Below are positions 3,518 through 5,056 of a stretch of 64,000 bases of DNA, one piece after another. The position numbers and the translations under genes are program-made. Origin of the DNA: Thermococcus sp. EP1 (GTDB lineage: Archaea; Methanobacteriota_B; Thermococci; Thermococcales; Thermococcaceae); NCBI RefSeq assembly GCF_001317345.1, contig NZ_JXCG01000003.1, positions 124,001 to 188,000 on the forward strand, in the 5' to 3' direction. The notes under the pieces were generated by a model, which did not search any database, was not told where the DNA came from, and saw only the letters and a program-made list of their open reading frames with translations. Every line of letters starts with the position of its first letter. Positions within the stretch are counted from its first letter, which is position 1.

Positions 3518-4120
3518 ATGGCGATTGAGGCAGTAGCCCCATATGCCAAATGGATTATAATTGCTGTGGCAGTGCTTTATTTTGCTTACTTGTTCATACT
3601 TAAGAAAAGAGTATTTGAGGTTGCAGTCGGAGTGGCCCTTTCCGGAGTAATGGCGGCTCTTGTTGCAGTGGTTACAATGGCAATTCAGGTGCCTACTCCT
3701 TTGACCAGTGGATACATCAACATTGGAGATACCATGGTAATGTTGGTAGCCGTTCTTTTTGGTCCTACCATAGGAGCCTTTGCCGGTGGTTTTGGATCGG
3801 CAATGGCAGACATTATAACTGGCTATGCTCATTGGGCACCGTTTACTTTGGTAATAAAAGGTGTAGAAGGATTCGTTATAGGATATATTACCTCCAAGAA
3901 AGATGATTTCACTGCAATACTCCTTGCAACGATCCTTGGTGGAGGTTTAATGGTTCTTGGCTACTTTTTTGTAGAAGTCTACGTTTATGGATGGGGTGGA
4001 GCCATAGCAGAGATTCCTGGAAATACTCTCCAAGCAGTCACTGGTATTGTGGTTGGCGGTGGCTTGGGACATGTTATAAAAAGAAGAATAAAGGATGTAT
4101 TGGTCTCTCTCCAAATTTAG
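3518..4120 (+). CDS. ECF transporter substrate-capture (S) component
   Basis: Membrane protein of ~200 residues with six hydrophobic segments. The core VALSGVMAALVAVVTMAIQVPTP...GYINIGDTMVMLVAVLFGPTIGAFAGGFGSAMADIITGYAHWAPFTLVIKGVEGFVIGYI matches energy-coupling-factor S components (vitamin uptake). The pattern INIGD...GP..GA..GG.GSA..D is characteristic. The vitamin is not identifiable from the sequence; no vitamin gene adjoins it. It has an extra N-terminal hydrophobic segment before the canonical fold. ATG 3518 is chosen because GAGGTG ends 6 nt earlier; GTG 3509 and ATG 3512 overlap that site. The 3' end overlaps the convergent gene by 4 nt. Confidence 0.8.
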   Translation: MAIEAVAPYAKWIIIAVAVLYFAYLFILKKRVFEVAVGVALSGVMAALVAVVTMAIQVPTPLTSGYINIGDTMVMLVAVLFGPTIGAFAGGFGSAMADIITGYAHWAPFTLVIKGVEGFVIGYITSKKDDFTAILLATILGGGLMVLGYFFVEVYVYGWGGAIAEIPGNTLQAVTGIVVGGGLGHVIKRRIKDVLVSLQI

Positions 4121-4404
4121 AGCTTTTGTATTTCTTCCATTTCTTCCCAGAACTCTTTTTCTTCCATTAATGGTTCTAGTGACACCCGTCTTGAGGCTTT
4201 TCGGAGATGTCCTATAAACCGTGGGTCCCCGATTATTGCATCACAGTTTAATTCTTCCACAATGTATACCTTTAGATTGAGATCTTTCAGCTCTTTCATG
4301 CCTTTTTCTGCGAATTTAGGGCCTATTAATGCGATTTTTGGCTGAAAACCATCCTCTTCTATTTCTCTTATAACAGTTGTTAAAAGTCTTAAAAGTTCAC
4401 TCAT
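4117..4404 (-). CDS. HK97 A-domain encapsulin-like protein (DUF1884 family)
   Basis: A 95-residue protein with the pattern [21 protein letters not shown]...[20 protein letters not shown], followed by an acidic/aromatic helical tail. I recognise it as the DUF1884 family whose P. furiosus member (PF0899, structure 2PK8, from memory) adopts only the A-domain of the HK97 capsid fold and has been grouped as family 4 (A-domain) encapsulins. ATG 4404 lies inside the last codons of deoC (8-nt overlap) with AAGGGG as ribosome binding site; the TTG at 4422 is less likely. Such proteins are reported beside metabolic enzymes including DeoC, which is exactly the context here. Whether it assembles into a shell is not known. 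Confidence 0.72.
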
Positions 4405-5056
4405 TTCTTGCCCCTTCGACAATTTTTACACCACTTGAAGTACCTATTCTATTCGCCCCTGCTCGTATCATTTCTATGGCCTGTTTGTAAGTTCTTATAC
4501 CCCCTGCTGCTTTGACACCTACTTTTTCTCCAACTATTTTGCGCATTAGTTTTACATCTTCAATAGTAGCTCCACCAGTTCCAAAACCGGTTGAAGTCTT
4601 AACAAAATCAGCTCCAGCTTCCACGGCAAGTTTGCATGCAATCTCTTTTTCTTCCTCAGTTAAATAGCATGTCTCAATAATTACTTTGACTATTGCTCCC
4701 TTTTCATGTGCTACTTTAGTAACGTCCTCTATATCCTTCTTGACATATTCGTAGTCTTTATCCTTCAATGCTCCAATATTGATCACCATGTCAAGCTCAT
4801 CTGCTCCATTTTCGAGAGCTTTTTTTGCTTCAAAAACCTTTACTTCTGTGGGTGTTGCTCCTAGAGGGAACCCTATTACACTTGCTACCTTGATATCTGT
4901 ACCTTTGAGGTGCTCTTTTGCTAGTTTTACTCTATATGGATTTACACAGACTGCATAAAATCCATACTTCTTCGCTTCTTCACATAGTTTTATTATATCT
5001 TCCTTAGTTGCATAAGATTTTAGGTTTGTATGGTCAATATATTTGGCAATGTTCAT
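4397..5056 (-). CDS. deoC: 2-deoxyribose-5-phosphate aldolase
   Basis: Class I aldolase cleaving 2-deoxyribose 5-phosphate to acetaldehyde and glyceraldehyde 3-phosphate. The 219-residue protein has the Schiff-base lysine in FVKTSTGFG (Lys153), the proton-relay Asp in DELDMVIN (Asp89) and the second lysine in VKAAGGIR (Lys182). ATG 5056 follows GAGGTG at 6 nt; GTG 5065 overlaps this site. Size and motifs match the archaeal DERAs such as TK2104. It is the promoter-proximal gene of a two-gene operon with the A-domain encapsulin-like protein, whose start overlaps its end. Confidence 0.93.

Follow-up and report, generated by a model that had tools for sequence, protein, structure and literature searches.

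An A-domain encapsulin gene overlapping deoC in Thermococcus sp. EP1, and its possible role as an accessory partner of the aldolase

In the window (the whole stretch of 64,000 nucleotides of Thermococcus sp. EP1 DNA analysed here), the gene for a 95-residue family 4B A-domain encapsulin and the gene for deoxyribose-phosphate aldolase (DeoC) form one overlapping two-gene operon, a pairing that recurs in Thermococcaceae far beyond chance. Neither protein strictly needs the other. The reading we favour, with a probability of about 0.4, is that the 4B protein is an oligomeric, accessory subunit: it would bind DeoC and stabilise or organise the enzyme, would be dispensable and would not form a closed shell.

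The family and the pairing are already known. Family 4, the 'A-domain encapsulins', was defined by Andreas and Giessen (2021), with 4A genes lying by hydrogenase or OsmC genes and 4B genes by those of GAPDH or DeoC (PMC8346489). The proteins were proposed to self-assemble and to bind, stabilise or enclose the enzyme, a hypothesis that allows small facets as well as shells (PMC8346489). The first-pass annotation of this DNA, which suggested a stabiliser or compartment for DeoC, restates that hypothesis, and the window is an instance of the DeoC operon type (NF041191), from which it differs in nothing: the protein family, its length, its place after the enzyme gene and the enzyme are the same. 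What is new here is the deoC pairing in 75 of 75 cases, the dispensability in both directions, a change of partner in one genus with a conserved ECF-S neighbour, the lack of 4B beside 18 non-Pyrococcus GAPDH genes, and the purifying selection. Two questions have stood since 2021, namely if HK97 A-domains on their own still assemble into anything and why metabolic enzymes are their neighbours; these now become a comparative test. The literature searched contained no later experimental paper on family 4 and no report of a 4B-DeoC interaction, and in a T. kodakarensis interactome paper the main text names neither 4B nor DeoC.

The gene pair and its conservation

The deoC gene (219 aa; TIGR00126, PF01791) lies at 4397-5056 on the minus strand and the 4B gene (95 aa; ENCP4, formerly DUF1884; PF08967, NF041191) at 4117-4404 on the same strand. 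The 8-nt overlap, ATGAGTGA (4397-4404, minus strand), contains the deoC stop and the 4B start, and overlaps of similar size join the two genes in relatives. DeoC scores 299 bits against the equivalog model TIGR00126 (cut-off 117.3) and matches many DERA structures. The 4B protein is a formal member of its family, at 70.9 bits against Pfam PF08967 (cut-off 31.4) and 130.8 bits against NCBIfam NF041191, encap_f4b (cut-off 90); it sits immediately downstream of its enzyme gene and is close to the expected size of about 100 aa. The place of the two genes, the overlap and the DUF1884 call had all been given by the first-pass annotation and stand as they were; the current Pfam label of PF08967 is 'putative type 4B encapsulin shell protein'. 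Convergent to 4B is the gene for an ECF-type transporter S component (ECF-S; 3521-4120, plus strand; riboflavin-type family PF07155), which serves as a syntenic marker and possibly has a functional link with 4B. Upstream of deoC is a strong Shine-Dalgarno sequence, GAGGTGA, and most 4B genes have a good one inside the end of deoC. The window was left out of the latter comparison, its automatic start being a wrong upstream TTG. An estimate of 4B:DeoC stoichiometry from Shine-Dalgarno strength was dropped, since a good site is common to most 4B genes.

PF08967 is present in 92 of 94 Thermococcaceae genomes and in none of the 21 other genomes of the phylum outside the family; bacterial members exist in Rhodothermus/Rubricoccus (PMC8346489). 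The 4B profile finds a 4B gene in 83 of the 94 (a count of high-scoring rows). Outside the Pyrococcus-like genus discussed below there are 75 such genes, each of which has deoC as its same-strand neighbour; for this reason the pairing is judged to exceed chance by far, and the earlier expectation of a conserved pairing is upheld. At the 56 loci examined nucleotide by nucleotide, the two frames overlap or abut, and the neighbourhood upstream of deoC varies among genomes. The tight conservation and the overlapping frames argue for a role shared by 4B and DeoC. In close pairs dN/dS of 4B is about 0.04-0.17, indicating strong purifying selection and hence that this small gene specifies a real, maintained protein. 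Short motifs are conserved across 4A and 4B, EELxxDAVxxD and then A-R near the last strand. The same genome has a second A-domain protein, a family 4A member whose gene directly follows one for OsmC (L110:4460-5177, G000:C6), which is the usual complement. At two other loci (L098, L099) the gene downstream of deoC has an N-terminus resembling phosphohexomutase/phosphopentomutase, which fits a nucleoside-sugar role of DeoC.

Predicted fold of the 4B protein

AlphaFold2, run without templates on 22 related sequences, gives a model (mean pLDDT 87, pTM 0.74) with helices at 3-17, 29-41 and 77-94 and strands at 24-27, 45-48, 56-59 and 71-74, that is, a predicted core of alpha-beta-alpha-beta-beta-beta plus a C-terminal helix. 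For this model the best Foldseek match in the PDB is 2PK8 (E 2.9e-4, TM 0.64). The following ranks are mostly HK97-fold capsid proteins (E 0.02-0.5, TMq about 0.4-0.5), including Bordetella phage protein 3BJQ, those of phages Oxtober96 and D3, of HFTV1, T4 and HK97, and T. maritima encapsulin (6wkv; TMq 0.52, rmsd 2.1 over 65 columns). A search of a viral structure library again returned many capsid proteins. Because these individually weak matches agree, the model supports an HK97 A-domain fold for the 95-aa protein, as the first-pass annotation had supposed.

The closest structure, 2PK8 (PF0899 of P. furiosus, a 4A protein of the sulfhydrogenase operon), shares the fold and is a distant relative in sequence (profile E 6e-12); it is a dimer in the crystal (PMC8346489). 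It differs from 4B in lacking the C-terminal helix, in the greater length of the loop joining the main helices, and in its partner enzymes. The helix at 77-94, found in 4B and not in 4A, carries the near-invariant residues W86, E82 and P78 and is a candidate interaction surface. In T. maritima encapsulin and HK97-type phage capsids the A-domain core superposes on predicted 4B, at weak E-values of 0.02-0.5. Unlike these classical HK97-fold proteins, 4B has no P-domain, E-loop or N-terminal helix or arm in its 95 residues, only A-domain elements and the one C-terminal helix, and so falls short of the full fold of an encapsulin in the strict sense. DeoC also differs from the cargo of classical encapsulins in having no conserved targeting peptide: it ends ...KIVEGARNE in the window, and its C-terminal tails are short and vary in length and sequence across 4B-bearing genomes, in line with the earlier remark that the aldolase has no obvious targeting extension.

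Each gene without the other

Intact deoC is found with no intact 4B gene in seven genomes (G001, G002, G004, G010, G012, G015 and G021). The 4B gene of G004 (L053) has lost about 80 nt from its interior and contains a premature stop; elsewhere it is almost the same as its counterpart in G011. In G012 (L033) the decayed 3' half of 4B is still clearly recognisable, so that these two genomes hold 4B pseudogenes at two stages of decay downstream of deoC. A weak 3' remnant is left in G021 and a very short one in G002, and in G015 the intergenic space where 4B would sit is gone. The losses fall at about five places on the tree of deoC, ECF-S and aminotransferase genes; those in G004 and G012 count as separate, since the intact G011 groups with G004. 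In these genomes 4B was lost or has decayed, in about five independent events. Rates and site changes in DeoC after 4B loss are mixed, with no consistent acceleration or signal; this counts against docking of 4B on DeoC, as change might be expected once a binding surface is freed. The species with DeoC and no 4B provide natural controls for testing the role of 4B.

The reverse situation is seen in genus g2, which by inference is Pyrococcus, its 4A protein in L004 being nearly identical to 2PK8. There deoC is absent, except that one draft genome has a fragment of 21 residues. The 4B proteins of this genus nest among the DeoC-type 4B proteins, and the convergent ECF-S gene is still downstream, with GAPDH as the upstream enzyme. 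In one of its genomes (G038; L109, L129), an inverted amino-acid permease gene separates GAPDH from 4B, and for this reason the GAPDH pairing looks secondary. Judged by the N-terminus, the same type of permease comes after GAPDH in several further Thermococcaceae genomes (L117, L119, L121). Most simply, the 4B/ECF-S block would first have ended up past GAPDH and the permease, and a later loss of the permease by deletion would have brought GAPDH and 4B together. At the 18 GAPDH loci examined outside this genus 4B is never nearby, so the published statement that an A-domain protein accompanies GAPDH in Thermococcus as well fails for these genomes. For P. furiosus, a native-proteome study is cited for a stable complex of GAPDH and the A-domain protein (PMC8346489). 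The partner change separates what 4B does alone from what it does for DeoC. At four loci of related families in the same class, outside Thermococcaceae (L095, L096, L097, L100), GAPDH and deoC lie side by side in divergent orientation, and no 4B gene is present.

Possible roles of the protein and its origin

The favoured mechanism would have 4B as a domesticated free-standing HK97 A-domain made together with DeoC. A small homo-oligomer of it would dock on the folded surface of tetrameric DeoC, and the docked protein may stabilise or organise the enzyme under heat or oxidative stress. TK2104 (DeoC) and TK0765 (GAPDH) of T. kodakarensis are both up under these two stresses (PMC4473059), and a 95 C optimum is listed in a table for the DeoC of that species (PMC6244999); an enzyme with the optimum tabulated there may not need a stabiliser. 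The dimeric crystal form of the 4A protein 2PK8 also counts against the favoured mechanism. An accessory role is argued by the seven genomes that keep deoC intact, and the survival of each gene without the other makes an essential subunit or an obligate cage less likely. The best reading is that 4B is helpful, not essential. Together, mutual dispensability, the heat optimum and the missing P-domain, E-loop and N-arm lower the strong version of the cage or stabiliser idea, and these, with the conserved overlap and the stress induction, are what favour a small accessory oligomer.

A closed cage is what 4B probably does not form. For pentamers of 4B to build a shell around DeoC as cargo, the predicted A-domain fold is the right kind of part, as A-domains give the five-fold contacts in shells, and a rough area estimate allows a 60-mer with an inner width of about 10 nm, which has room for one DeoC tetramer. 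The lack of the other shell parts in 95 aa and of a targeting peptide on DeoC, whose tail varies, argues against a classical shell, and DeoC persists without 4B; of all the explanations weighed here such a mini-compartment is the least probable. It is also unlikely, if less so than any other alternative to the accessory subunit, that the capsid A-domain acts as an adaptor which changes partners among the enzymes producing or consuming glyceraldehyde-3-phosphate (GAP), serving DeoC in most Thermococcaceae and, after deoC loss, GAPDH in the Pyrococcus-like genus, as a small open oligomer and no shell. Somewhat more doubtful is a scaffold that serves DeoC in Thermococcus and Palaeococcus-like species and GAPDH in Pyrococcus, channelling or locally protecting the heat-labile GAP. 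GAP is used by both enzymes, both are stress-induced, the deoC-less genomes have the 4B-ECF-S block by GAPDH, and the divergent GAPDH and deoC genes in related families would fit; however, 4B is absent near the 18 GAPDH loci outside that genus, and the intervening permease in G038 means that the GAPDH pairing may be an accident of gene order.

Two further explanations are each a little less probable again. As a regulatory or ligand-binding subunit whose A-domain has given up its structural role, 4B would tune DeoC activity directly; it is small and belongs to an operon of fixed make-up, and the motifs common to 4A and 4B could form a binding site, but paralogues that accompany unrelated enzymes (OsmC, in the same genome) have these motifs too, which is better explained by a common role in fold or assembly than by one ligand. 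Alternatively, 4B may have a role of its own and only share a transcript with deoC. Passive linkage of this kind accords with the survival of 4B after deoC loss in the Pyrococcus-like genus, of deoC after about five losses of 4B, and with the ECF-S neighbour that 4B keeps when the enzyme changes. It is hard to square with the adjoining of deoC by every 4B gene outside that genus despite a varying upstream neighbourhood.

A viral origin of 4B was rejected on the sequence level, since no relatives were found in viral contigs, phages or plasmids. Residues 11-80 (4132-4374, minus strand) do give a weak PHROG match to phrog_20192, labelled 'tail assembly chaperone' (E 8e-4), which is possibly a mislabelled family of HK97-type head proteins.
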